Shown here piece by piece: positions 1-15,408 of a stretch of 64,000 bases of DNA. The notes below the pieces were generated by a model. It saw nothing but the letters and a program-made list of their open reading frames with translations, was not told the origin of the DNA and did not search any database. The stretch is from positions 4,228,582 through 4,292,581 of the forward strand of contig NC_014364.1 of NCBI RefSeq assembly GCF_000143985.1, read 5' to 3'. The translations under genes and the position numbers were made by a program. Each line of letters opens with the position of its first letter. Positions within the stretch are counted from its first letter, which is position 1. This stretch comes from Sediminispirochaeta smaragdinae DSM 11293 (lineage in GTDB: Bacteria > Spirochaetota > Spirochaetia > DSM-16054 > Sediminispirochaetaceae).

Positions 1-459
1 TGGTGGAATAAAATTCCCAATCCCGAAAAATGCCTGTCCCGCGCTCATGGCACCGCTGTAATTCATCGAAAAAGCCCGGGAGAGAATAACGGGACAGCCG
101 CTGTCCTGAAACCCCATACCCATGCCCGCTATAGCCATGAGAATAAGTGCAAGCCAGTAATGGGTGTTCAGGGGCATAAAAATGAAATTGATGCCAAGTG
201 CGAGGTAGCCGATCATGAACGACCTCCGCACCCCCAGTTTTTCGGTGATGATACCGCAAAAAAAGACCATTGCGACCCGGCCTAGGGCAAAGGCAGAGCT
301 GAGAGCCGCTACCTGAGCCACCGAGACTTGAAAATAACCGGTCAAGGCAATCATAGAAGCCCCGATACAAGCGGCGGCTATACCGGTCATCAGATAGAGG
401 CCGTAGGCCTCTATAACGGCTATACGTGAGTAAGTACAAAGTGTATCGTTTCGTTTCAT
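1..459 (-). CDS. MFS transporter, N-terminal part (cut by window edge)
   Basis: Starts at the ATG at 459 and stays open to base 1, giving the first 153 residues of a major facilitator. Several hydrophobic helices are visible, and the loop after the second ends in ITEKLGVRRSF, the usual cytoplasmic GRLxDRxGRR-type position. The start codon overlaps the TGA of the upstream ATPase gene as ATGA (456-459), so translation is probably coupled and the gene is the last visible member of the ECF transporter operon. Context suggests it moves the same compound, or its desulfurated product, as the ECF system. The substrate cannot be read from the sequence. Family assignment is firm; the role is inference. 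Confidence 0.8.
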   Translation of the reverse strand, partial: MKRNDTLCTYSRIAVIEAYGLYLMTGIAAACIGASMIALTGYFQVSVAQVAALSSAFALGRVAMVFFCGIITEKLGVRRSFMIGYLALGINFIFMPLNTHYWLALILMAIAGMGMGFQDSGCPVILSRAFSMNYSGAMSAGQAFFGIGNFIPP

Positions 460-1274
460 ACAATATCTGCCGTTTGGCCTAGGGCATCCAAGAGTTCCTG
501 TTGCGTCACAATTCCTCTGGCCAGACCGAGCTCTCGTGCCAGGCTGCAGACCGGCGGCTGTTTCAGTGAAGCCTTTTGCATGATCTCCATGTCCCAGAAA
601 ATATCGCGGGCGTCACCATCGGCGATCTTCCGCTTGTCGGCCATTACAATGACCCGACGAAAATGTTCCAGGACAAAATCCATGTCGTGGGTGATGGTGA
701 TGATTGTTTTTCCCCGCCCTTGTAAGACTTCGATAATACGGGCCAGCAAATTCAGCCCATGTAGATCCTGTCCCGCCGTGGGTTCGTCGAAAATCAGCAC
801 ATCGGGGTTCATGGCAATAACGCAAGCAATGGTGACGAATTTTCGAATGGAGAGGGGAAGATCGTAGGGGTTGAGCTCCATTTTGTCTTCCAGGTCGCAG
901 AGCTCAACCGCCAGATCGATCCATTTCTTACTTTCCTCTTCCGGAACCTTATTCATTTTGGGAGAATAGATGACCTCCTTTTCAACCGAAGACTGAAAAA
1001 GCTGGTCGTCCGGGTTCTGAAACACATACCCTACCTTTCGTGCAATCTGGGCGGTAGAAAAATCCCTCGTATTCTTGCCCTGCACGAAAACGGTTCCTTC
1101 GGTCGGCTGAAAAAGGTTGTTCATCAATTTCACCGTCGTCGTTTTTCCTGCCCCATTCTGTCCGACGATGGCAACCGCCTCGCCGGCATCAAAGCCCATA
1201 CCGACGTGATCGACGGCCTGAAATCCGCCGGGATAAGAAAAGCTTACATCTACAAGTTCAATTGCATGCATCAT
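456..1274 (-). CDS. ECF transporter ATPase with degenerate signature motif
   Basis: A 272-residue ABC ATPase of the energy-coupling factor (cobalt/vitamin) type. Walker A is GQNGAGKTT (about 38-46), the Q-loop lies in FQNPDDQLF (about 85-93), and Walker B with catalytic Glu is VLIFDEP (about 159-165). The normal LSGGQ signature is replaced by LSIRK (about 141-145). In a heterodimer with the neighbouring canonical ATPase this predicts one strong and one degenerate ATP site. It lies 6 bp downstream of the second ATPase and overlaps the MFS gene by 4 bp. The family is clear from the motifs. The substrate is set by the S protein, not by this subunit. Confidence 0.92.
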   Translation of the reverse strand: MMHAIELVDVSFSYPGGFQAVDHVGMGFDAGEAVAIVGQNGAGKTTTVKLMNNLFQPTEGTVFVQGKNTRDFSTAQIARKVGYVFQNPDDQLFQSSVEKEVIYSPKMNKVPEEESKKWIDLAVELCDLEDKMELNPYDLPLSIRKFVTIACVIAMNPDVLIFDEPTAGQDLHGLNLLARIIEVLQGRGKTIITITHDMDFVLEHFRRVIVMADKRKIADGDARDIFWDMEIMQKASLKQPPVCSLARELGLARGIVTQQELLDALGQTADIV

Positions 1275-1280
1275 TGTTAC

Positions 1281-2132
1281 CTATTTGTGGTTCATAAGAT
1301 CCCGGAGAAGAACTACCGTCTCCTCATGGGTGATGGGAATCCGTTCCACCGGTTTTCCCGCCTTTCGAAGCCGATGGCCTATCCGCGCATAAACGGGAAT
1401 CTGGGTATCATGGTCCAAAAGCCGCTCGTCAGAAAGAATTTCCCGGGTCGGCCCGAAAAAGGCGATCCGTCCTTTATCCATAACGATGATTTTGTCGGCA
1501 TATTCGGCGACAAGATCTATCTTGTGCTCAACAAGGATCACTGTTTTTCCCTTCTGCTTGACCAGATCGATAATGGCAAAGACCTGTTCGGTACCCACAG
1601 GGTCAAGCTGACTCGTCGGCTCATCGATGACCAGCACATCCGGATCCATAACAAGAATCGAGGCAAGGGCGACCCGCTGTTGCTGCCCGCCGGAAATCTC
1701 GAAGGGATTCTTATCCTTTAGATATCCTATGCCCAGTTCGTCAATGATGGCCTCGACCCGCCTGATAATCTCCGAAGCCTCCACACCAAGGTTTTCCAGC
1801 CCGAAGCAGAGCTCTTCAAAAACCGTATCCTTGATATAGCTTATCTGATTGAAGGGATTCTGAAAGATGTACCCGATACGAACAGCCAATTCTCCTGAGG
1901 AAATCTTTGAAAGATCCTTTCCCTCGAATAGGATTTGGCCGAAGCTGATCCCCTTGTAGAAACTGGGAACAAAGCCGCGAATTGCATTGCATAAGGTGGT
2001 CTTACCGCTTCCGTTCGGCCCAATGACACCCACGAAGTCTCCCTGTTCGATGGAGAAGGTGATATTTTTCAGAGCAAAGTCGTCGCTGACGGGATATTGG
2101 TAGCTAAAATCATCGATTTCTATCAGTGCCAT
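1281..2132 (-). CDS. ECF transporter ATPase, canonical
   Basis: A 283-residue ECF-type ABC ATPase with Walker A GPNGSGKTT, Q-loop FQNPFNQISY, signature ISGGQQQR and Walker B VLVIDEP. It forms the energizing pair with the next ATPase. The start is the ATG at 2132, where GGGAGG lies 8 nt upstream. A GTG three codons earlier (2141) sits inside that ribosome-binding site and is rejected. The start overlaps the end of the T-component gene by 10 bp, so the subunits are co-translated. All residues for hydrolysis are present, unlike its partner. Confidence 0.93.
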   Translation of the reverse strand: MALIEIDDFSYQYPVSDDFALKNITFSIEQGDFVGVIGPNGSGKTTLCNAIRGFVPSFYKGISFGQILFEGKDLSKISSGELAVRIGYIFQNPFNQISYIKDTVFEELCFGLENLGVEASEIIRRVEAIIDELGIGYLKDKNPFEISGGQQQRVALASILVMDPDVLVIDEPTSQLDPVGTEQVFAIIDLVKQKGKTVILVEHKIDLVAEYADKIIVMDKGRIAFFGPTREILSDERLLDHDTQIPVYARIGHRLRKAGKPVERIPITHEETVVLLRDLMNHK

Positions 2133-2878
2133 ATGGTACACCTCCCGGCAACAGCGGCAAGTAGAATAAGGGCGGCAACTACTCTCAGCAGACCGTCGAA
2201 CCGTCCCTTTTCCACGGTGCGGATGTGCGTTTTTTTACAGGGAGCAGAAAAGGCCCTGGCCTCCAGGGTAAGGGCCCGTTCCTCAATTCCCGAAAAGGAA
2301 CTCAAAATCAATGGTGCAAGCATCGGAATAAAGGCCCGCAGTCGGACCTTTAAACCTCCTTTCGTCTCGATACCCCGCGCCTGTTGGGCATTCATGATTA
2401 CCTCCGACCGCTTCTTGGTTTGGGGAATCATTTGGAGCGTCGATAAGATGATATAGGATGCCGTATGAGAAAAGCCGGAGGCCTCCAAAGAGAGAATCAA
2501 ATCCTGCATCTGCGTTGTCTGAAAAAAAAGGATAAAAGAACTGGCGATAACCAGGAGAATACCGCAGAGATTTAAGGCGTAAAAGATGCCCTCCCACTTT
2601 GCCGCAAAAATCCAGAGATGAAAGATAATATATTGCCCCGGCCGAAATAGCGTTTGAAGGGCAAAAATAAGAATAAAAAGGAAAAGGACCGAGCGGGCGA
2701 TCTTTTTCATGAACACCTTGATGCTATCCCCCGTCGCAGCAAAAAGCACAAGAAAGATAAAAAGAATATAGGAATACCACCACGAGGGCACAATAATGCT
2801 CAGTATGGAAAAGAGAAGAAGATACAAAAGTTTTGTGATGGGATAAAGCTTATTCAAATATCGCCGCTTAACATCCAT
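2123..2878 (-). CDS. ECF transporter transmembrane T component
   Basis: A 251-residue membrane protein that couples the two ATPases to the substrate-binding S protein. It has hydrophobic segments near residues 20-60, 75-95 and 100-145 and the two diagnostic cytoplasmic Ala-Arg motifs, QQARGIE and LEARAF, in the C-terminal half; these coupling helices contact the ATPases. The start at 2878 is chosen because AGAGGA lies 5 nt upstream; a start 16 codons earlier has no such signal. It is third in the S-T-A-A order, after a 102-bp gap that contains a hairpin. Confidence 0.9.
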   Translation of the reverse strand: MDVKRRYLNKLYPITKLLYLLLFSILSIIVPSWWYSYILFIFLVLFAATGDSIKVFMKKIARSVLFLFILIFALQTLFRPGQYIIFHLWIFAAKWEGIFYALNLCGILLVIASSFILFFQTTQMQDLILSLEASGFSHTASYIILSTLQMIPQTKKRSEVIMNAQQARGIETKGGLKVRLRAFIPMLAPLILSSFSGIEERALTLEARAFSAPCKKTHIRTVEKGRFDGLLRVVAALILLAAVAGRCTIWH

Positions 2879-2903
2879 AAAAGTCCTCTGTTGAATCACT
2901 TCT

Positions 2904-2938
2904 ATCCCGCCGGAAGCCAAGCCCATGCCCGGCGGGAT
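2904..2938 (-). promoter_or_regulatory. Intra-operon hairpin between S and T genes
   Basis: A perfect 10-bp inverted repeat (ATCCCGCCGG at 2904-2913, CCGGCGGGAT at 2929-2938) encloses a 15-nt loop. No T tract follows on the transcribed strand, so it is not a standard terminator. In this position it could stabilise the upstream S-component mRNA or slow transcription into the T-A-A part. Structure is seen; function is inference. Confidence 0.6.
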
Positions 2939-2980
2939 GATAATCAGCCTGCTATCTCTTCGGTCTTGCTGTCGAAATGT

Positions 2981-3616
2981 CTAGGCATCCTTTCCGTCAT
3001 CGGCAACAGGAGCCTCAACAGCAGTAGTCTTCTTATGTTTAAGGAACTGTTCGCCACAGGGGTATTTGACAAGGATACGATCGCTCATTGCCTTTATGAT
3101 GATGTAGGCCACAATGATCGAAAGGCCCTTATCTGCAATCTCGGTGAAAACCTGTGAGGTAAATACCGAAGTAAAAAGGGTCTTTCCCGTTGCCAGCATC
3201 AATGCCGTGAGGTAGGTGCTGCCATTACCGGTGATGCCTCCATAGACATACATAACGATGGGGGACCCCACAACCACACCTACAAGGGTAACACAGAGAA
3301 TAGAAATGATGATCTTCCACCAGGTGGTAAACATATGCTTTCTTGAAAGGATTCCGCTAACCAAACCAATCACTCCGCTTACCACGGCAAAGGGGAAAAA
3401 ATTCGGCTGAAAGATACCATTGATAACATTGCTCAGGACACCGGCGACAAGGCCGACCCAGGGACCCGCCAAAATACCGGCAAGGATGGTTCCGATCGAA
3501 TCGATATAGATCGGAAGGGCCAAGACCGCCGCAATCTGGCCACCTACGACATTCAGAGCAATTGCCACGGGAATGAGCAACGTACTCATCAGGGTGAAAT
3601 CATCTTTCACACTCAT
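2981..3616 (-). CDS. ECF transporter S component (CD3073-like)
   Basis: A 211-residue integral membrane protein, the substrate-binding subunit of the ECF transporter. It has about six hydrophobic segments and the conserved stretch PIYIDSIGTILAGILAGPW followed by GVLSNVING, found in S components of this group. Its neighbours are the complete T and ATPase set, so this is a dedicated ECF system, and a TudS-related gene lies beyond the regulator. That pairing resembles Clostridioides difficile CD3072/CD3073 (family names recalled, not searched). AGGAGG lies 9 nt before the ATG at 3616. The substrate is unknown; a thio-substituted heterocycle is my inference from the desulfidase. The charged C-terminal tail (about 180-211) is probably cytoplasmic. 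Confidence 0.8.
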   Translation of the reverse strand: MSVKDDFTLMSTLLIPVAIALNVVGGQIAAVLALPIYIDSIGTILAGILAGPWVGLVAGVLSNVINGIFQPNFFPFAVVSGVIGLVSGILSRKHMFTTWWKIIISILCVTLVGVVVGSPIVMYVYGGITGNGSTYLTALMLATGKTLFTSVFTSQVFTEIADKGLSIIVAYIIIKAMSDRILVKYPCGEQFLKHKKTTAVEAPVADDGKDA

Positions 3617-3638
3617 GTTCCTAACCTCCTACTGTTAT

Positions 3639-3688
3639 GCAAATTATGGTATTCGCCACTGCCGGGAGACCCTATAGTGACAATTTGC
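3639..3688 (-). promoter_or_regulatory. Possible control region upstream of the ECF operon
   Basis: The 87-bp gap between the regulator and the S gene holds a 7-bp inverted repeat (GCAAATT 3639-3645, AATTTGC 3682-3688). On the minus strand it also holds AATACCATAA, which resembles one arm of the operator upstream of the GntR gene (AATACCAATA). I see no strong promoter here; the operon may be read through from the GntR promoter. Low certainty. Confidence 0.3.
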
Positions 3689-3703
3689 ACACGAGACCAA
3701 GAT

Positions 3704-4447
3704 TCAGATTCGATCGACCCGTAACGTCAGTCCGTTCACCGACGAATTAATAATTGTCTTGTTAAAAAATATCGGAGTACCGATTTCATCACTGACCAAT
3801 TGCTGCAGAAGCAAAAGGGGGGTATTTGCTTTCACCTTAAAGATATTTGCATAGAGAGAACCTGCAATTATTGCAGTTACAATACAGCTGCTGCTATGAC
3901 CCTTTCCCTCTACATAGCGCACAATCTCTTCTTTGCGACCCGAACGCGGAAACTCTAGTTTGGTAGTCAGAGGAACAAAATCCAGAAGATGCGCAAAAAC
4001 GATATCCTTCTCTTGTGCATCCCTGTAGACGCGATCGAAGACATGAATCAACGATCCCTTGGGCAGAGAGAGAATCTCACTTTCCAGTTCATCCACATTC
4101 TGGACGGAAATCTCGAGACAGGCGAGTTTCCAGGAAAAATCAAGCTTATCCAGCAAGGTTTCGATGGTCGAATAGCGATTGACGCTTGCACTGTGCATAA
4201 AGGGACGTCGCGAAACATAAGCTCCCGATCCCTGCCGTCTGTTAATCAGGCGATCTTCTTCGAGCAGCTGTAAAGCCTGACGCAGGGTATTACGGGAAAC
4301 GGCAAACTGCCTGATCAGCATCTCCTCGGTCGGAAGTTTAGCGCCCGGCTCCATATCGGCAATGAAATCACAGAGACGATTGTAGACAGAGATATACATC
4401 GGAAGCTTTTTTTTCTTCATCCCATCGGGGATATGCCCTTCATACAT
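3704..4447 (-). CDS. GntR/HutC-family transcriptional regulator
   Basis: About 247 residues. The N-terminal winged helix-turn-helix carries the GntR pattern (KLPTEEMLIRQFAVSRNTLRQALQLLEE...GSGAYV). The C-terminal part, from about residue 90, is a UTRA ligand-binding domain as in HutC proteins. The start at 4447 is chosen because a TTGACG-N17-TATGAT promoter ends 6 nt before this ATG. An earlier TTG at 4474 would lie inside the operator and upstream of transcription. A further in-frame ATG at 4420 is possible. The gene sits between the ECF operon and the divergent desulfidase gene and probably senses the transported compound or its product. Autoregulation is suggested by the inverted repeat in its promoter. 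Confidence 0.88.
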   Translation of the reverse strand: MYEGHIPDGMKKKKLPMYISVYNRLCDFIADMEPGAKLPTEEMLIRQFAVSRNTLRQALQLLEEDRLINRRQGSGAYVSRRPFMHSASVNRYSTIETLLDKLDFSWKLACLEISVQNVDELESEILSLPKGSLIHVFDRVYRDAQEKDIVFAHLLDFVPLTTKLEFPRSGRKEEIVRYVEGKGHSSSCIVTAIIAGSLYANIFKVKANTPLLLLQQLVSDEIGTPIFFNKTIINSSVNGLTLRVDRI

Positions 4448-4496
4448 AAAAATATCATAAAATAGTAATACCAATACGTCAATAATTTATTGGTAT
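4448..4496 (-). promoter_or_regulatory. Leaderless GntR promoter with operator
   Basis: On the minus strand TTGACG (4477-4482) and TATGAT (4454-4459) are 17 bp apart, and the -10 ends 6 nt before the ATG at 4447. A 9-bp perfect inverted repeat (ATACCAATA 4468-4476, TATTGGTAT 4488-4496, 11-bp gap) places one arm inside the spacer and the other just upstream of the -35, the layout expected for autorepression by a GntR dimer. Confidence 0.7.
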
Positions 4497-4561
4497 CAAT
4501 TTATTTCTAATTAGATATAGTGGAACCTATAAGCCTATATCCTGATTTATACTAATAATAA

Positions 4562-4590
4562 TTGACAGACAGGGTAAGCAATGTTATTTC
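4562..4590 (+). promoter_or_regulatory. Promoter of the desulfidase gene
   Basis: TTGACA (4562-4567), a 17-bp spacer and TATTTC (4585-4590) precede the gene starting at 4609. The -35 is perfect and the -10 weak, as expected for a regulated promoter. The GntR operator lies about 70 bp upstream. Confidence 0.5.
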
Positions 4591-4608
4591 TGTTGCAAGA
4601 GGTTAGTC

Positions 4609-5169
4609 ATGACCAAGATACTGTTTGTTTCGCATTGCATTCTGAATACCGCCTCCAAGGTGGAACTTTTTTGTGAAGAAGAGATGGAAAAGGAAGAAAA
4701 CCTCCGTCGCCTCTTTCTCAAACAGGCGATAGAGGCGGGTTTCCAACTCGTCCAGTTGCCTTGTCCTGAATTCCTCTTATACGGTCCTCAGCGATGGGGC
4801 CATGTCAGTGATCAGTTTGACAATACCTTCTTCCGCAATTACAGCGATGCCTTTCTTGCCCCCTACATCGATCAAATCAAGGAATATCATTCCCACCCTG
4901 AGAAGTTCAAGATCGCAGGTGTTGTCGGCATCGACGGCAGTCCCAGTTGCGGTGTTACCTACACCTGCAAGAGCGCTCGTTGGAAAGGTGATTTCTCAGG
5001 CAGAGAAAATGTTGATGCGATCATCGATTCCGTTACCCTTGAGAAGGGGAACGGCATTTTCATCCGTGAGCTGCGCAGGCTCCTTGAGAAAGAGGGGTTG
5101 CAGGTCCCAGTGGTAGGTCTTTTTGCCGACGAGCCACAAAGATTGTTCGACCTGCTGGAAAGAGCATAA
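4609..5169 (+). CDS. TudS-related putative desulfidase (CD3072-like)
   Basis: A 186-residue cytoplasmic protein related to the DUF523/TudS thiouracil desulfidases, which remove sulfur from thiolated substrates using a [4Fe-4S] cluster. Candidate cluster cysteines are C10 (VSHCILN), C52 (QLPCPEF) and C114 (GSPSCGV); C22 and C120 are extra. Length and motif order fit the CD3072 subgroup rather than classical TudS. AGAGG lies 6 nt before the ATG. It is divergent from the GntR gene whose operator lies in the shared 161-bp region, and so probably belongs functionally with the ECF importer. The biochemical substrate is unknown. Confidence 0.8.
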   Translation: MTKILFVSHCILNTASKVELFCEEEMEKEENLRRLFLKQAIEAGFQLVQLPCPEFLLYGPQRWGHVSDQFDNTFFRNYSDAFLAPYIDQIKEYHSHPEKFKIAGVVGIDGSPSCGVTYTCKSARWKGDFSGRENVDAIIDSVTLEKGNGIFIRELRRLLEKEGLQVPVVGLFADEPQRLFDLLERA

Positions 5170-5298: not shown

Positions 5299-6207
5299 AT
5301 GGCAATACCTGATTACGAAACGTTGATGTTACCAATCTTGAAGTTCCTATCGGATTCAAAAAATCGAAAAACAAGTGAAATTGTTCAACACATGATTGAA
5401 GAATTTAATATATCTCCAGAAGAAGCAAAAGAGCTGATTCCAAGTGGCCGTGCGAAATTAATCAGTAACCGCGTCGGTTGGGCCTGTACTTATTTACGAA
5501 AGGCCGGATTAATTGAATCTCCTCAACGAGCATATAATCAAATCACACAAGTCGGTTTAGAAGCCTTTAAAAGCAAGCCACAAAAAATTGATACTGCTTT
5601 TTTATCTCGTTATGAGAGATTTCAAGAATTTAAAGAAGAACATACCGAAAGAAGTAATCGGAAATCAAATAACAAAATTACAATTGAAGAGAAAACACCA
5701 GAAGAAATAATCGGCATACAAAGTCAGCTAATAAACAATAGCCTTAGCCGAGATTTATTAGACGTCATATCAACTATGGAGCCAACGAATTTCGAACAAC
5801 TCGTTGTAGATTTACTTTTAGCCATGGGATATGGCGGAACAGTAGATGATGCAGGGTCTGCAATAGGGCAAACAAATGACGGTGGCATTGATGGAGTAAT
5901 CAAAGAAGACATTCTAGGATTGGATACGATTTTTATTCAAGCAAAAAGATGGAAAAATACTGTTCCGATAAAAGAAGTAAGAGATTTTGCAGGTGCATTA
6001 TTATCAAAAAAATCAAACAAGGGTGTATTTATTACAACCAGTACGTTTCCGGATCGTGCATATGATTTCGTTTCGACAATTGATCGAAAAATAATCTTAA
6101 TTGATGGCAAAAGACTTGCCAATCTCATGATCAAATTCAACCTTGGAGTAGGGACAAAGGAAGTCATAGAGATTAAAGAAATTGATACTGATTACTTCAC
6201 AACATAA
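5299..6207 (+). CDS. Mrr-like type IV restriction endonuclease
   Basis: A 302-residue protein with an N-terminal Mrr winged-helix domain (about 1-95) and a C-terminal Mrr_cat PD-(D/E)xK nuclease domain (about 155-285). The nuclease core is visible as NFEQLVVDLLLAMGY, DGGIDGVI and FIQAKRW, where D, Q and K form the D...QxK variant of the active site. Such enzymes cut DNA with modified bases. AGAGG lies 7 nt before the start. The coding sequence is clearly more AT-rich than its neighbours and follows directly after the mini element, so acquisition by transfer is likely. There is no modification partner of a classical RM system; the next gene is not an obvious DNA methylase. Confidence 0.9.
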   Translation: MAIPDYETLMLPILKFLSDSKNRKTSEIVQHMIEEFNISPEEAKELIPSGRAKLISNRVGWACTYLRKAGLIESPQRAYNQITQVGLEAFKSKPQKIDTAFLSRYERFQEFKEEHTERSNRKSNNKITIEEKTPEEIIGIQSQLINNSLSRDLLDVISTMEPTNFEQLVVDLLLAMGYGGTVDDAGSAIGQTNDGGIDGVIKEDILGLDTIFIQAKRWKNTVPIKEVRDFAGALLSKKSNKGVFITTSTFPDRAYDFVSTIDRKIILIDGKRLANLMIKFNLGVGTKEVIEIKEIDTDYFTT

Positions 6208-8395: not shown

Positions 8396-8875
8396 TCACG
8401 GTTCAGGAAGCAAGGCCGAAAGCTTTATGCTTCCATACTGGGGCGCTGGAAAAAGCGTATCGTCGTATTTCGCCACGCCCGAGTCCAAAAGCCGGGGAGA
8501 ACTCCAACCATCGGGAACGAGCTCTTCATAGAGAATACGTGCGGTAAGCCCATCGCCGGAGGCAAGGGTACAATCCAGGCTTACATACAACGCGCGGTTC
8601 GGATCGCTCCTATCAACAAGAGCCGTGGCACTCCAGGTATAGGGCAGATCTGAAGAAGAGAGGGAAAGATTTGTCACCGCGCTCCAGGCATTTCCCTCTG
8701 CATCGGTGAACGCAGTAGCTTCGTTAAAATCGATATTGAGGGTTGCAGCGGAACAGGTTCCCGTAAGCTCCACACTTACCCGAAAAAAACGCACGCCCCC
8801 GGCATCCGGGGCATAATCACAGGAGGATAAGGCCATAATGAAAAGCATCGATAGCAAAGGCCAGCGAAACCTCAT
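8396..8875 (-). CDS. Small secreted lipoprotein, unknown function
   Basis: A 159-residue protein with a lipoprotein signal: basic start MRFRW, a hydrophobic core and ALSSC at about 15-19, with Cys19 as the lipidation site. The mature part is rich in Ser, Thr and Asp and looks all-beta. I do not recognise a family. Its ATG overlaps the stop of the giant protein gene as ATGA (8872-8875), so the two are translationally coupled. It may anchor or assist the giant protein at the outer membrane; that is inference. Confidence 0.75.
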   Translation of the reverse strand: MRFRWPLLSMLFIMALSSCDYAPDAGGVRFFRVSVELTGTCSAATLNIDFNEATAFTDAEGNAWSAVTNLSLSSSDLPYTWSATALVDRSDPNRALYVSLDCTLASGDGLTARILYEELVPDGWSSPRLLDSGVAKYDDTLFPAPQYGSIKLSALLPEP

Positions 8876-11800
8876 CGAATCACCATCACCTTTCGATACT
8901 CATCGATACCAGGACCGCTGAACCGGACAAAGTAGATTCCCCGGCCTACCGCATAGCCGGCCCGGTTGCGGCCGTCCCAGCTAACAGCGTACTCGCCGGC
9001 ACTTCGCCTTCCCCGGTAGAGAACATCAATCAGGTCCCCCGCGAGATTGAATACCTGAATGGTAATGGTACCGGAACGGGTTATGGTGTAATGCAGGGTA
9101 GTCTTTTCCCCCTCATCCGGGTTGATGACGTTGTTGAGGATGGTCACATCACCAGTCTGCGTCCGTACCTCCCGCATTTCGAAGGAGAAAGGCCGAATGG
9201 TACGATACCAGTTTGAGGCGGCAGGGGAAGCAACCCTGGCATGGTAGAGATCATCGGCATAAAGGAAGAAATCAAAGGTACCGTTGTCCTTTAATTTATC
9301 CGAAGAATCGGAGATGGTGAAATTAATCAGGGAAGAGCCCTGATCCGCTCCTGAGAGACTTGCAGGATCGGAAGAACTGTAGCCCGAAGGCAAGGTTGCC
9401 GATGGATCGTTCGGATAAGGAACCAGACCACTGAAGTCGGTTTCATCGAAAGAAGGAAGCCACAGGCCTGAGTTGTCGGAAGAAGTAAAATCCTGGGGAA
9501 CATCGCTATCGTAAGAAAGGGTAGGCACGGATGCCGATCCGTAGTTGACCTGCAGTTCGATCTCCTGGGGTTCCAGCCATGCCGAATCATCAAAGTAGTT
9601 GATAAGCCCGACCCCCGCCCCGCGAGTGGCATCCCGCTGAACGGCGGTATTGCGGGCGTAGACGGGTTCGATGATGCCGAGGCCAAGATCGGAGACTCTG
9701 TGGGTGGTGGAGCCGATGATATTGCCCTCCGCATCCTGGGTCGTAGTAGGTAGCGTGACAGTAACATGACCGATGATATTGGCATCGGAAAGCGCGGAGG
9801 CGGTGTTCAAGGTTACCTCTTCTATTTCCGCGCTGCTTCCCGTTACGATGGACAGACTTGTTGCCGACGTTCCGTTTACCGTAAAATCGCCGGCGATCCA
9901 GGAACTTGCACTGCTGTCGACCTGAACAGGCTCCGAGAAATGGATGAAGACCTTGCTATACCCGGAGACGGCCAGGGTGTAACCAATGACGGGAGACGCG
10001 CTATCGATAGTAGCGGCAATGTCGTCCGTATCTTCAATGGTGACATATCTGCTAGTACCGGTAGTCGACCGGAGGCTGTCATTCGTATCGTTACCACCGG
10101 TAATCCACCAGGAGGGGGTTGCATCGGTATCCAGATATGGTTTCTCCTCAAGCAGAATATAGAAGACATCGTCGTACGAAGTACCGGTATCGTAACCAGC
10201 CACTGTGTAACCGTCCACCGTTGCCGAAAAATCGGAGAAGTCATCATTCAACGGAGTGGAGGCATTTACCGTCACCTGGATTCGGTCCAGTTTTCCGTCA
10301 CCGTTGGAATCCTGCATAAGGCTTTCGATAACAGGAATGACAAGCCGCCAGTTGTAACACCAATCGTCTTCGCTGTGGCGATCGGGCCGAAACAGCGCTG
10401 AGGTGGGGTAAATGGGGACATACGAATAACTCAACTCAACGTAGGCGTTATCAATATCGGCGGTTCCTCCTGCCTCGATGGTAAGCCTCCACTGTTCGGA
10501 ATAAAGAGCATCATCATAGGCAGTCGCAGGATGGGAATTGCTTTCGGTATAGGAGCTTAAAAGCTCGACCTCATGATTCTCGGCACCGGTCACGACTAAA
10601 GAGCCTCCTGCAGCGATGGTGATCAGCTCACCTTCGGGAAAGTAGACGATCTTCGGCGTGTCATCATTATCCCCATTGGTATCGACGATTTCCAAATTGT
10701 AAAAGGTGTAGGCCCGGCCGATGTGGCTTTCCTGGATCGTATCATCATTGAAGGCGATGGTACTCTCTCCAGGATTAAAGGTGGTGATGTCGAAATCCTG
10801 CCCAACGTTGATTTCGACCGAGTCGGCGGAAGAACCGGCATCCAAGGTTCCAGTGCCGAAAATATCTTCCCCGGCGGTCAAAACAACCGTGCCGGAAAGA
10901 GAGATGGTTCCGTCGCACTCCACATCGCCGTCCGCAGTCAGATTTCCATCCGACACCGAAAGGGAAACGCCGGAAGCAACGTAGAGACTACCGGGGGCAG
11001 AGCCTCCTATACTAAGATCGTATCCGCCAAGGTCAAAGCTCCCCTGAAGGACCCGAACCTCACTTGCAATCTCCGTATTTTTTACCAAGGTAAAGGTGGT
11101 ACCGCTATTTGTCGCATTGAGCTCGAGAATATAGAAGTTGGCAGGATCGCTTGATGGGTCATCAAGATCGTACACCGTTGCCGAGACAGCCCCAGAAGCG
11201 GTCAAATCACCGACAAATCGCACAATTCCGCTGTCGATATCCATTGTTCCGATGGATACCGTTTCCCTGCCGTCAAGCTCAAATACACCGCAGTCGGGGT
11301 ATGTGAGGCCTTCGAGGGACATGGCTCCTGACAGGGTAACATCATTTCCGCCGGTGGAAAACTCGGCATCTGCTGTCACCGAAAGGTCTCCGTCGATGGT
11401 CGTATCATCAAGGGGAACCACCCGGGTTAGCGATAATCCCGATGATTCCACCGATACCGACATAAGAGAAAGCCCGGCACTGGTTAGATTCTGCTCTACT
11501 TCCCCGGAAAAGATGAGGGTATCAGAGGAATCACTGTTGTCCAAACTCGTCGCCGAAGAACATACAAGATCCCTCTGACACTCGAGAACTCGATCAACCG
11601 AGGGACCAAAATCGATGGTGGCCCCCGACAGGTCGGCATCGCCAACCAAGGTTACGCCCCCCCCTCCGATGACAACCGTCCCTGCTGCGATTGTTGTTCC
11701 GGTCACCGTTACCGCTCCGGCCCCGGATACATCCAGTGTGCCGCCGGAACTAAGGGTGAGATTGCCTCCGGCGATAAAGTTTCCGTCGCTGAAACTCAAG

Positions 11801-14800
11801 TTCCCGTTCAAAACCGCATCACCCGAGGTGGAAAAGTCACTGGCCCCGCAGCTCAACGAAGAACCACTTCCCACGGTGAGCGTATTCACATCGGGGTCCA
11901 TCCCGCCATCGATGAAGGTGATATCTGCCCCGATAACCAAGGCTCCGATACTTTCATCATCATCCAGCGTAAGGGCTCCTGTCCCGTTAAGGGTGAGGGT
12001 GCTTCCCAAATCGGTAATAGTTCCTGACGTGTTGATCGTATAGATCCCCGCTCCGCCTCCGGCAGAAGTCAACGCGGCCGTTCCTAAGTCGAGATTACCT
12101 CCGGTAATATATATGTCTTCTATTCCCGTGACGGTTTTGGCACCGAAGAAAAGTGAGCCGCTGCTTTCCGTCAGGTCGGCCCCCGGGGCCCCGGTAAAGA
12201 CAAGCGTGCCGCCGGCCGATCCGCTGTCCCAGCTGCAGCTTCCTCCCGTCACACTCAGGGAATCCACACTCTGGGTATTCCCTCCGTTGTCTCCCGTCTG
12301 CGTAAAGCTTCCGTCGCTCACTTCCAGCTGGCCGCTTATTGCGATATCTCCAACGCCAAACAAAGAGCTTCCCGTCCCACTGTGCGTGTAACTCGAGACC
12401 TCCACACGTCCACTCGTATGTATCAGGTCTCCAGTCCCACTCACCGTAAGAGCCTGGCCCCCATCCAGGGTTCCTGCAAGTACGTTGAAACCTACGTTGT
12501 CATTGATATCTACCGCTGCCTCAAGCGTCCAGCTTAGTCCATTCAAATTCACTGCCGTTGCCCCACTGCAGCCGAAACTAAGCGTCGCACCCGTGGCCTG
12601 CGTCATGTTATCTGTATCTAAACCAAGGCTTCCTCCGCTTTTATTCACCTCTACACTGGGAAACGCATGGCCTCCGCTTCGTACCAGCTGTGCCCCGGCA
12701 CCGGTGAACCGAATCACATCTCCCGAATCACCATTCGTGATACTACTTCCGCTTGTAAAGGTTACATCGGCAGATACCTCAAGTTCTCCATCATTTGTAC
12801 CATTGAAGTCTATCGTCCCTCCGCTTCCGTCAAGCGCTCCTAGAACGCTAACTATTCCGCTCCCCATGTTGAGTGTTCCGCTATTGATAAGGTCGGAACC
12901 AAAGCTCACCGCTCCCACACCTGTCAATGTCCCACTGTTCGTAAACGTCCCCGCATAACTTTGGCTCCCGCTTGTTATCGTCTCTATGGTCCCGTTGTTA
13001 CCCGACGCCCCGGTTCCTGTTACCGCTATATCTCCTCCCGTCACACTCAGCGTACTGTACATCGTGAGTACTCCCCCGACACTCACCCCTCCGGCCCCGG
13101 CACTTATATTTCCATTGCCGGCCGCAGCCTGACTCAGATCACCATTCACCGCTATTCCGCCAGCTCCGACACTTATCTCCCCCGTGGAACTTCCATCCTG
13201 TGTCAGGTTTCCGCTTACCAGCAGCTGCCCACCTCCGGAAAGGCTCACATCACTGCTTGCCCCTGTCCACACAAGATTTCCCGTCACATCTATATTTCCC
13301 GCTCCACTAGAGCTGAGCGCCCCGCTCCCGTTGAGGGCCGCCCCACCAGCACTCACACTCATGGTTCCGTCTTCCACACTTACGGTTCCGGTCCCATTCA
13401 TCGTCAGAACAGCTCCAGCCGTTACAATGCCGCTTCCGGAAGCCGTAATGCTTCCCCCATTATTCACTGTCAGCGCCCCTACCGTACCAAAGCTCCCGCC
13501 GTTCCCTACCGTCACCGCTCCACTTACATCGGCACTGTTCGCACGAAAGGCATTTCCACCTACCGCAAGGCTGCCTCCCGAAAAGCTCAGCGTATCCACA
13601 TCAGGATCCGCCCCGCCATCGCTAAAGGTGATAGCTGCCCCAATAACCAGGTCTCCGATACTCTCATCGTCATCCAGGCTAAGGGTGCCGTCTCCGTTAA
13701 GGGTGAGGGTGCTTCCCGAATCGGTAATAGTACCTGACGTGTTGATCGTATAGGTCCCCGCTCCGCCTCCGGCAGAGGTCAAAGCAGCTGTCCCTAAGTC
13801 GAGATCACCTCCGGTAATGTATATGTCTTCTATTCCCGTGACGGTTTTAGCGCCAAAAGAGAGCGAGCCGCTGCTTTCTGTCAGGTCGGCCCCCGGGGCC
13901 CCGGTAAAGACAAGCGTGCCGCCGGCCGATCCGCTGTCCCAGCTGCAGCTTCCTCCCGTCACACTCAGGGAATCCACACTCTGGGTATTACCTCCGTTAT
14001 CTCCCGTCTGCGTAAAGCTCCCGCCTGTCACACTCATCGCCGCAACGGTAAAGGCACCTGTTCCGATCGTTACCGTTCCCCCGGATACCGTAAAATCGAG
14101 AACACCGATACTTCCCGTCGTATGGGTGATACTTCCCCCGGCCACGGTCACGTCATAGCTGCTTCCGCCATCCAGACTTCCGCTCACCACCGTTACGGTG
14201 CCGTCCGAACTATTCAAACTAAGGTCGGCGCCCAGGGTAAGGGTATTGCCGTCAAGGTCCAGCTCTCCGGTGGTGACGGTAAGAACGCCACCCGCATTCT
14301 GAGTCAGATTATCGGATAGCTGCAGCGTGTCGCCTGCAGCATCTTTTGTAACTGTTATGCTGTAAAATGATTTCCCGCCGCTTGCCAAAGATTGAGGATT
14401 ATGGTCTCCGCTAAAAGTCACGGTTTCACTTCCCGGATCAAAGGCCGAAGCAGAATCGCTGCTCCAGTCTCCCTGCAATTCGAGGGCGGAACCGGAGGTC
14501 GACATATCAAGGCCTCCTGCAGAGTCCAGGGTGATGTTTCCGGCACTTCCGGTGCTGTCGTTCAGGGTCAGGGTATGAGCGTTAAGATCCAGAGTTCCCA
14601 CAACGATTGTCATGCTCACATCCTGCAGGGTCAGATCCCCGGCAAGTCGGAGAATCGAAGCCTGAAGATCCTTGTTGATGCTCACATCCCCATCAAGGGT
14701 GTTGGCGTTGGGATCAAAAACCTGAGGAGTAGCTGTTCCCGAAAAGAGGACCGAAGTACCATTGGGAGTGAAGGTACCAAGGGTGGTGGAAGCTCCCTCG

Positions 14801-15408
14801 AAGGTGATGGTCCCAGCGGCATTCCCCACAAGAACTCCTCCGCTGTAGTTCCCTTCGAAGCTCACCCCTCCAGTTCCCGACGTTATCGTTCCAGTACCGC
14901 TCACCGCACCGCTAAAGCTTACTAAACCGCTCCCTCCAGTTATCGCTCCCCCATTCGTCGTGCTTCCACTCACACTCAGCACATTGTTCCCCATACCCAG
15001 CGTGTGCCCCGTCGCTATATCCAGATCACCCGCAAGATTCAAAGAACCACTCACATTCACCGTTTCAAATCCACTCCCGTTGCTGATCGTCAGGCTGTAC
15101 AAGCCCTGCCCTCCCGTACTCAAGGCTACCGGTGTTCCCGTCCCGTCAAGATCAATCTCCCCACTGTTGTGCGTCAAACTCGTAAAGCTTACCGTCGTTC
15201 CTGCTATACTCGTCGTTCCACTCGTCGCATTATACGCGCCAACCGTAAAATCTCCATTTACATCGACGCTCCCGCTTCCTCCGTCAAGCGTCCCACCTCC
15301 GCTCACATCTCCGCCAATACTACAGCCTAAGGCTACAAGATCCACACTCGTACCTAGCGCTATCGTCAAATCGCCCGCAAGCTTCAGATTGCTGGTGACC
15401 GCACTCAC
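8872..15408 (-). CDS. Giant surface repeat protein, C-terminal ORF (frame-shifted part)
   Basis: 2,178 codons continuing the protein of the upstream ORF in the -1 frame. It begins at a GTG overlapping that ORF's TGA (GTGA, 15405-15408) and has no signal peptide. Residues 1 to about 1,600 are beta-helix-like repeats rich in G, S, T and N (patterns such as SGNLT, LTLNG, GGxLxV), typical of adhesin stalks. Two 144-residue in-register copies lie at nucleotides 11881-12312 and 13591-14022. Further on come a calcium-loop-like DSNGDGKLD, an SbsA/Ig-like segment (VFIHFSEPVQV), and a C-terminal FlgD-like Ig segment (YTITRSGTITIQVFNLAGD...GEYAVSWDGRNRAGYAVGRGIYFVRF). It probably reaches the surface only when joined to the upstream ORF. 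Confidence 0.85.
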   Translation of the reverse strand: MSAVTSNLKLAGDLTIALGTSVDLVALGCSIGGDVSGGGTLDGGSGSVDVNGDFTVGAYNATSGTTSIAGTTVSFTSLTHNSGEIDLDGTGTPVALSTGGQGLYSLTISNGSGFETVNVSGSLNLAGDLDIATGHTLGMGNNVLSVSGSTTNGGAITGGSGLVSFSGAVSGTGTITSGTGGVSFEGNYSGGVLVGNAAGTITFEGASTTLGTFTPNGTSVLFSGTATPQVFDPNANTLDGDVSINKDLQASILRLAGDLTLQDVSMTIVVGTLDLNAHTLTLNDSTGSAGNITLDSAGGLDMSTSGSALELQGDWSSDSASAFDPGSETVTFSGDHNPQSLASGGKSFYSITVTKDAAGDTLQLSDNLTQNAGGVLTVTTGELDLDGNTLTLGADLSLNSSDGTVTVVSGSLDGGSSYDVTVAGGSITHTTGSIGVLDFTVSGGTVTIGTGAFTVAAMSVTGGSFTQTGDNGGNTQSVDSLSVTGGSCSWDSGSAGGTLVFTGAPGADLTESSGSLSFGAKTVTGIEDIYITGGDLDLGTAALTSAGGGAGTYTINTSGTITDSGSTLTLNGDGTLSLDDDESIGDLVIGAAITFSDGGADPDVDTLSFSGGSLAVGGNAFRANSADVSGAVTVGNGGSFGTVGALTVNNGGSITASGSGIVTAGAVLTMNGTGTVSVEDGTMSVSAGGAALNGSGALSSSGAGNIDVTGNLVWTGASSDVSLSGGGQLLVSGNLTQDGSSTGEISVGAGGIAVNGDLSQAAAGNGNISAGAGGVSVGGVLTMYSTLSVTGGDIAVTGTGASGNNGTIETITSGSQSYAGTFTNSGTLTGVGAVSFGSDLINSGTLNMGSGIVSVLGALDGSGGTIDFNGTNDGELEVSADVTFTSGSSITNGDSGDVIRFTGAGAQLVRSGGHAFPSVEVNKSGGSLGLDTDNMTQATGATLSFGCSGATAVNLNGLSWTLEAAVDINDNVGFNVLAGTLDGGQALTVSGTGDLIHTSGRVEVSSYTHSGTGSSLFGVGDIAISGQLEVSDGSFTQTGDNGGNTQSVDSLSVTGGSCSWDSGSAGGTLVFTGAPGADLTESSGSLFFGAKTVTGIEDIYITGGNLDLGTAALTSAGGGAGIYTINTSGTITDLGSTLTLNGTGALTLDDDESIGALVIGADITFIDGGMDPDVNTLTVGSGSSLSCGASDFSTSGDAVLNGNLSFSDGNFIAGGNLTLSSGGTLDVSGAGAVTVTGTTIAAGTVVIGGGGVTLVGDADLSGATIDFGPSVDRVLECQRDLVCSSATSLDNSDSSDTLIFSGEVEQNLTSAGLSLMSVSVESSGLSLTRVVPLDDTTIDGDLSVTADAEFSTGGNDVTLSGAMSLEGLTYPDCGVFELDGRETVSIGTMDIDSGIVRFVGDLTASGAVSATVYDLDDPSSDPANFYILELNATNSGTTFTLVKNTEIASEVRVLQGSFDLGGYDLSIGGSAPGSLYVASGVSLSVSDGNLTADGDVECDGTISLSGTVVLTAGEDIFGTGTLDAGSSADSVEINVGQDFDITTFNPGESTIAFNDDTIQESHIGRAYTFYNLEIVDTNGDNDDTPKIVYFPEGELITIAAGGSLVVTGAENHEVELLSSYTESNSHPATAYDDALYSEQWRLTIEAGGTADIDNAYVELSYSYVPIYPTSALFRPDRHSEDDWCYNWRLVIPVIESLMQDSNGDGKLDRIQVTVNASTPLNDDFSDFSATVDGYTVAGYDTGTSYDDVFYILLEEKPYLDTDATPSWWITGGNDTNDSLRSTTGTSRYVTIEDTDDIAATIDSASPVIGYTLAVSGYSKVFIHFSEPVQVDSSASSWIAGDFTVNGTSATSLSIVTGSSAEIEEVTLNTASALSDANIIGHVTVTLPTTTQDAEGNIIGSTTHRVSDLGLGIIEPVYARNTAVQRDATRGAGVGLINYFDDSAWLEPQEIELQVNYGSASVPTLSYDSDVPQDFTSSDNSGLWLPSFDETDFSGLVPYPNDPSATLPSGYSSSDPASLSGADQGSSLINFTISDSSDKLKDNGTFDFFLYADDLYHARVASPAASNWYRTIRPFSFEMREVRTQTGDVTILNNVINPDEGEKTTLHYTITRSGTITIQVFNLAGDLIDVLYRGRRSAGEYAVSWDGRNRAGYAVGRGIYFVRFSGPGIDEYRKVMVIR
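11881..12312 (-). repeat. 432-bp internal direct repeat, copy 2
   Basis: Matches 13591-14022 with a constant offset of 1,710 bp and no length change, encoding 144 residues in register. The translated copies share SFTQTGDNGGNTQSVDSL and the stretch onward through the TVTGIEDIYITGG block. Identity is strongest around 12170-12310, where long runs are identical, suggesting recent duplication or gene conversion. Confidence 0.85.
13591..14022 (-). repeat. 432-bp internal direct repeat, copy 1
   Basis: Partner of the copy at 11881-12312, and first in the direction of translation. It encodes the same 144-residue block within the repeat region of the giant protein. The unequal divergence along its length (nearly identical at 13890-14020, more different at 13591-13720) fits partial gene conversion. 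Confidence 0.85.

Follow-up and report, generated by a model that had tools for sequence, protein, structure and literature searches.

The genomic setting of a TudS-like protein in Sediminispirochaeta smaragdinae suggests an uptake and breakdown route for a sulfur-bearing nucleoside. The stretch of DNA analyzed, here called the window, comprises 64,000 nucleotides (S. smaragdinae bases 4228582-4292581), and at its start lies an operon, continuing beyond the window's edge, with the gene for the TudS-like protein divergent from it. The full gene order is gntR-S-T-A1-A2-MFS-UP-amidohydrolase-NH, in which S, T, A1 and A2 are the parts of an energy-coupling factor (ECF) transporter, MFS is a major facilitator superfamily protein, UP a uridine phosphorylase and NH a nucleoside hydrolase. 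It appears somewhat probable that the operon imports and breaks down a thiolated pyrimidine nucleoside, which most likely comes from degraded tRNA and is of the 4-thiouridine (s4U), 2-thiouridine (s2U) or 2-thiocytidine (s2C) type. The host, S. smaragdinae SEBR 4228T (formerly placed in Spirochaeta), is a strict anaerobe and halophile and forms sulfide by reducing thiosulfate and sulfur (PMC3035371).

The enzymes that bear most directly on the substrate lie outside the window, where the genome upstream (locus map L055; window positions are L055 positions minus 10000) carries the minus-strand run of genes unbroken past window base 1. The uridine phosphorylase (L055 8459-9232, minus strand) scores over the cut-off of PF01048 (115 bits) and, with 246.5 bits, under that of TIGR01718 (280.3). 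It is followed on the same strand by a TRZ/ATZ-type amidohydrolase (L055 7134-8456) with metal motifs of the HxH/H/H/D type (HxH, FHTH, AHS and GCDG, in order), and then by the nucleoside hydrolase (L055 6128-7120; PF01156, 259.6 bits), whose DxDxGxDD calcium motif is intact (DVDTGTDD). The genes are closely spaced, with gaps of 36 bp between MFS and UP, 2 bp between UP and amidohydrolase and 13 bp between amidohydrolase and NH, and a congener (genome G376) retains the whole gene set at 93-99% identity. Because UP and NH stand beside an importer, the substrate is therefore likely to be a nucleoside and not a free base. A preliminary description of the window had proposed a self-contained system for import of a thio-heterocycle followed by desulfuration. 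The label of self-contained has to be dropped, as three genes of the same operon lie just outside the window. Import followed by desulfuration is retained on the strength of the catalytic residues, the fold match and the linkage to importers described below, while the free thio-base gives way to a nucleoside in view of UP, amidohydrolase and NH.

The TudS-like protein (4609..5169, plus strand; 186 amino acids) is a putative desulfidase that belongs to the NCBIfam family CD3072 (NF045597; 154 bits, over the curated cut-off of 130). The cluster ligands of TudS are Cys10, Cys43 and Cys104, and its catalytic residues are Glu45, Ser101 and Ser103 (PMC10611767). In the window protein these are matched in register by C10, C52 and C114 and by E54, S111 and S113, the last residues forming the stretch S111-P-S-C114. 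C10, C52-P-E54 and S111-P-S113-C114 are invariant among 42 aligned sequences, and the CPE and SPSCG motifs are found in 71 of 71 loci examined. Supporting this relationship, an AlphaFold (AF2) model of the protein (predicted local distance difference test, pLDDT, 93.9), compared with the PDB by Foldseek, has the two TudS structures 6z92 and 6z96 as its best matches (probability 0.99 and 0.98); TudS did not come up when the PDB was searched by sequence with the TudS-like profile, and it was the fold search that found it. The substrate contacts are a different matter. In docking, Arg17 and Tyr18 of TudS contact the phosphate and the base, Tyr18 stacking on uracil (PMC10611767), and in the window protein they are replaced by Lys17 and Val18, of which Lys17 is almost always kept. 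Thus, as judged from the alignment, the reaction centre of TudS is kept while the substrate contacts are altered, and both desulfidase activity and a [4Fe-4S] cluster are predicted for the protein.

Several observations weigh against a thio-nucleoside as the substrate. The score of the TudS-like protein with PF04463 is 20.2 bits, under the gathering score of 34.7; the fold match to TudS is only moderate (TM score 0.47-0.57, E 6e-3); and a profile comparison with DUF523 aligns the same motifs weakly (probability 42, E 2.6e-4). The change of Tyr18 to Val loses the base-stacking residue, and the operon has no nucleoside kinase although known TudS enzymes favour 4-thiouridine monophosphate (4-thio-UMP; PMC10611767). 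Ordinary nucleosides, too, are handled by UP and NH, and many loci of the family have another importer or none nearby, in part owing to short contigs. In an alternative reading, the TudS-like protein is an iron-sulfur enzyme of another reaction, such as hydrolysis or dehydration of a non-thio base, and the operon serves an unusual sulfur-free nucleoside. The loss of Tyr18 and of the Pfam match argues for it, as does the presence of CD3072 family genes beside ECF, CUT1, amino-acid-type and other ATP-binding cassette (ABC) importers, so that the substrates of the family may vary. All TudS cluster ligands and the proposed catalytic Glu and Ser residues are nevertheless retained, and this alternative is considered unlikely.

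The importer itself is complete with its own energizing module, S, T and the two ATPases being encoded together on the minus strand. The substrate-binding S component (2981..3616; PF12822, 50.2 bits) scores 126 bits with NF045596 (CD3073), under the curated cut-off of 180, and is a distant relative of CD3073. The preliminary description had assigned the locus to a CD3072/CD3073-type pairing; this stands for the TudS-like protein (154 versus 130 bits) and is doubtful for the S component (126 versus 180). The closest solved relatives of the S component are folate S components (E 8.5e-5), and folate was rejected as the substrate, the match being weak and no folate gene being seen in the operon. 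The T component (2123..2878; CbiQ family, PF02361, 82.7 bits) has the coupling motifs Ala-Arg-Gly at residue 167 and Ala-Arg-Ala at residue 207. ATPase A1 (1281..2132; TIGR04520, 227 bits, cut-off 315) keeps an intact ISGGQ signature, and A2 (456..1274; TIGR04521, 207 bits, cut-off 330) has an intact Walker A motif and an ABC signature replaced by LPLSIRKF. The same degenerate signature (LPLSxRKF or a close form) is seen in all other readable A2 sequences as well (L067, L077, L085, L099, L117 and others), with A1 keeping L/ISGGQ. One of the two ATP sites of the module would accordingly be degenerate, making a conserved one-sided ATPase pair. The MFS protein follows (window 1..459, minus strand; L055 9269-10459), the window holding the first 153 of its 396 residues. 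The gene overlaps of the preliminary description are real, amounting to 4 bp between MFS and A2 and 10 bp between A1 and T, and each of the genes that it named (the four ECF genes, MFS, the GntR/UTRA regulator and the divergent TudS-like gene) is present and coherent, with MFS cut by the window start.

A search of 84,980 species genomes yielded 288 relatives of the TudS-like protein, and neighbourhoods were taken from the best 80 of these 288; the counts are lower bounds, as the greedy caller of open reading frames misses genes (S, for instance, in several loci) and many loci end at contig ends. An ECF set is found in 24 of the 80 loci, all from other genomes. These 24 also contain UP (18), NH (18), a protein of 400 amino acids here called Iso400 (16), MFS (14) and a gene of the TenA family (10). 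In 21 of the 80 loci, UP is found in the neighbourhood of the TudS-like gene, against about one to be expected if, as a rough assumption, there are two UP genes per 3 Mb. A CUT1-type ABC importer is found nearby in 20 further loci, and UP is present in only one of these compared with 18 of the 24 ECF loci. The CUT1-type importer stands in place of the ECF set, usually adjoining the TudS-like gene and often with a haloacid dehalogenase (HAD) phosphatase (L070, L076, L081, L086, L091, L114 and others). In four loci (L079, L099, L106, L107) the TudS-like gene has a YjjI-type glycyl radical enzyme adjoining it or close by, together with a gene of about 280 codons that possibly encodes its activase.

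Related gene sets occur in many Bacillota and in other Spirochaetota; together with the conserved set of the congener G376, this means that the arrangement is no accident. The usual order in Lachnospiraceae is Iso400-NH-(TenA)-UP-MFS-A2-A1-T-(S), with a Crp-type regulator and the TudS-like gene divergent. Among 393 sampled Spirochaetota genomes, all eight S components over the CD3073 cut-off adjoin a CD3072 gene, and the two such loci that were mapped, of Brachyspira type (L059, L060), carry S, TudS, A, A and T and are without nucleoside enzymes. Of two more distant spirochaete CD3072 proteins, one has an amino-acid-type ABC importer beside it and the other a further ABC importer (L061 5562-8333 and L064 7955-12427, respectively). 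The shared theme of CD3072 proteins is thus their linkage to importers, and the test proposed in the preliminary description, whether the neighbourhood is conserved in other genomes, did not refute it, as the TudS-like gene is found beside importers time and again.

Two recurring extras of the Bacillota loci are consistent with pyrimidine and pentose handling. Iso400, present in 19 of the 80 loci, matches no Pfam family; its model (pLDDT 93.0) has the fold of L-arabinose isomerase (TM 0.81, E 1e-20), and such an enzyme would suit the pentose released by NH. In S. smaragdinae only a weak match to Iso400 was found (28% over part of the protein), and the amidohydrolase is present instead. The TenA-family gene occurs in 12 of the 80 loci, and the Cys region of thiaminase II is conserved in the alignment of these proteins. 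TenA cleaves the bond between a pyrimidine-bound CH2 group and nitrogen on aminomethylpyrimidine. This raises the alternative that the substrate is specifically a wobble 2-thiouridine of the 5-aminomethyl type, 5-methylaminomethyl-2-thiouridine (mnm5s2U) or 5-carboxymethylaminomethyl-2-thiouridine (cmnm5s2U), from which the TenA-like enzyme would cleave the side group and the TudS-like protein would take the 2-thio group. Along with the TenA-family genes, it can draw on the bacteria-specific occurrence of mnm5s2U and its transient appearance in E. coli medium (PMC11708014). The protein tested, however, scores 104 bits with TIGR04306, under the thiaminase II cut-off of 130, no TenA is seen in over half of the ECF loci, and a search of the S. 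smaragdinae genome found no TenA gene; so restricted a substrate is distinctly unlikely. The absence from S. smaragdinae also led to the rejection of TenA as a universal step of the pathway.

A phylogeny of the uridine phosphorylases suggests how the module has spread. The operon UPs of S. smaragdinae, its congener, a Treponema and Bacillota lie on one side of a branch with support 99/98, and the comparison set, ten UPs of other spirochaetes and the S. pyogenes UP, lies entirely across that branch; about 20 near-fixed differences separate the two groups. As the operon UPs form a single clade across phyla, UP therefore appears to travel with the module. A single vertical origin of the ECF and UP setting is unsupported, as at least five changes would be needed on the TudS tree. 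Most simply, the module would be a functional unit that has passed from phylum to phylum and become linked anew to one importer or another.

The preferred interpretation, import and breakdown of a thiolated pyrimidine nucleoside, can be set out as a sequence of steps. The S component would bind the nucleoside and the T/A1/A2 module would power its import, after which the ribose would be removed by UP and NH. The TRZ/ATZ-type amidohydrolase would then deaminate an amino-bearing base, and in relatives TenA-like proteins may act on other side groups. Sulfur removal would fall to the TudS-like protein, with C10, C52 and C114 binding the [4Fe-4S] cluster on which it takes place, and would leave a normal base together with sulfide. 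The MFS protein may export or import a base or nucleoside; the whole set would be regulated by the GntR/UTRA protein. Candidate substrates are s4U, s2U and s2C and, in TenA-bearing operons, also the 5-aminomethyl-2-thiouridines. Of these, the bacteria-specific mnm5s2U, s4U and s2C occur in RNA, and as E. coli grows, the amounts of most modified nucleosides in its medium go down (PMC11708014), so that such substrates would be available in principle.

The MFS protein can also be read as an efflux pump, in a module that clears toxic thio-nucleosides or thio-base antimetabolites. Its presence in the operon in 14 of the ECF loci would be in keeping with detoxification, and 4-thiouracil inhibits S. 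aureus growth by way of pyrimidine salvage (PMC12210855). A dedicated importer would be counter-productive for such a purpose, though, and the NH, isomerase-fold and ribokinase neighbours suit catabolism better, which leaves detoxification very doubtful. The thio-nucleoside interpretation may also be extended to a dedicated, horizontally spread pathway of anaerobes, in which tRNA-derived thio-nucleosides, the wobble 5-aminomethyl-2-thiouridines included, would be imported and then lose their ribose, side chain and sulfur one after another. No earlier ECF transporter for a thio-nucleoside, and no earlier TudS-type enzyme linked to uptake, would then precede those of the module; this broader proposal is regarded as rather unlikely.

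The regulator is a GntR-family protein with a UTRA domain, of the HutC type (3704..4420, minus strand; PF00392, 57.8 bits; PF07702, 25.3 bits). Its preferred start is at 4420, and the frame is open to 4474. A common control region had been suggested for the locus. As gntR is encoded on the same strand as the ECF genes and lies upstream of S at a distance of 87 bp, the divergent region is the one shared by gntR and the TudS-like gene. Within the divergent region, at 4468..4496, is the inverted repeat ATACCAATA-N11-TATTGGTAT, of which there is one exact copy in the window and none in shuffled sequences; searched with one extra flanking base, it was found once genome-wide. It overlaps a promoter-like site for gntR (4482-4454, minus strand) that by itself is not above chance, and it may be regarded as a candidate operator. 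A riboswitch was sought as a clue to the substrate, and in 13 loci Rfam gave none near the operons, its matches being limited to tRNAs, a group II intron and a T-box at a distance of 8 kb. The gene that directly follows the TudS-like gene (window 5299-6207) encodes a Mrr-type restriction endonuclease with Mrr_N and Mrr_cat domains; the corresponding position in the congener G376 (L058) is without Mrr. Farther on, window 8872-15408 (minus strand) encodes a repetitive protein of 2178 amino acids, rich in Gly, Ser and Thr, that by its appearance is secreted or located at the cell surface.

If the interpretation is correct, it would add a new class of ECF substrate. It would provide a function for the CD3072 family and the related S component and would carry TudS chemistry to imported compounds, beyond internal 4-thio-UMP. 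The bacterial fate of modified nucleosides freed from RNA is poorly known, and the operon, conserved in gut and sediment anaerobes, would give a concrete and testable route. NCBIfam already defines CD3072 as a putative desulfidase and CD3073 as an S component, without a function; the two are named from neighbouring locus numbers, and the pairing was therefore probably noticed by the curators. Literature searches returned only string coincidences for CD3072/CD3073 and no paper joining these enzymes in one operon. As far as could be checked, the parts are individually known and their union as a nucleoside module is undescribed.

The module can be compared with several known systems. TudS (DUF523; thiouracil and 4-thio-UMP desulfidase) shares the three Cys ligands, the Glu and Ser-Pro-Ser-Cys in register and is the best fold match, whereas the window protein falls under the Pfam cut-off, differs at positions 17 and 18 (Arg to Lys, Tyr to Val), has 186 as against 166 amino acids and belongs to a transport operon; the TudS and RudS publications mention no transporter. 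RudS, which joins a TudS domain to DUF1722 and demodifies 4-thiouridine in tRNA, has the same type of catalytic domain, but the window protein lacks DUF1722 and has another genomic setting. S. smaragdinae also encodes a RudS-like protein (TudS domain, 325 amino acids; L057 5183-6160), followed by a GntR-type regulator and an S-component-like gene (together L057 5183-7623, equal to G000:538183-540623), possibly a second link of the TudS domain to an S component. The CD3072/CD3073 pair is approached by a TudS-like protein over the CD3072 cut-off and an S component distantly related to CD3073; unlike the Brachyspira-type loci, the present one adds UP, NH, amidohydrolase and MFS, and its S component is under the cut-off. 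The S. pyogenes-type UP (3qpb) is 55% identical over the aligned part and shares the stretch KDxFYGQ, although the operon UPs form a clade apart from it. In principle the module also resembles queuosine-precursor salvage by QueT/QrtT, in which a tRNA-derived modified base or nucleoside is imported (PMC11130926). The S component and the downstream enzymes differ between the two, and the modification that is reused there would here be removed.

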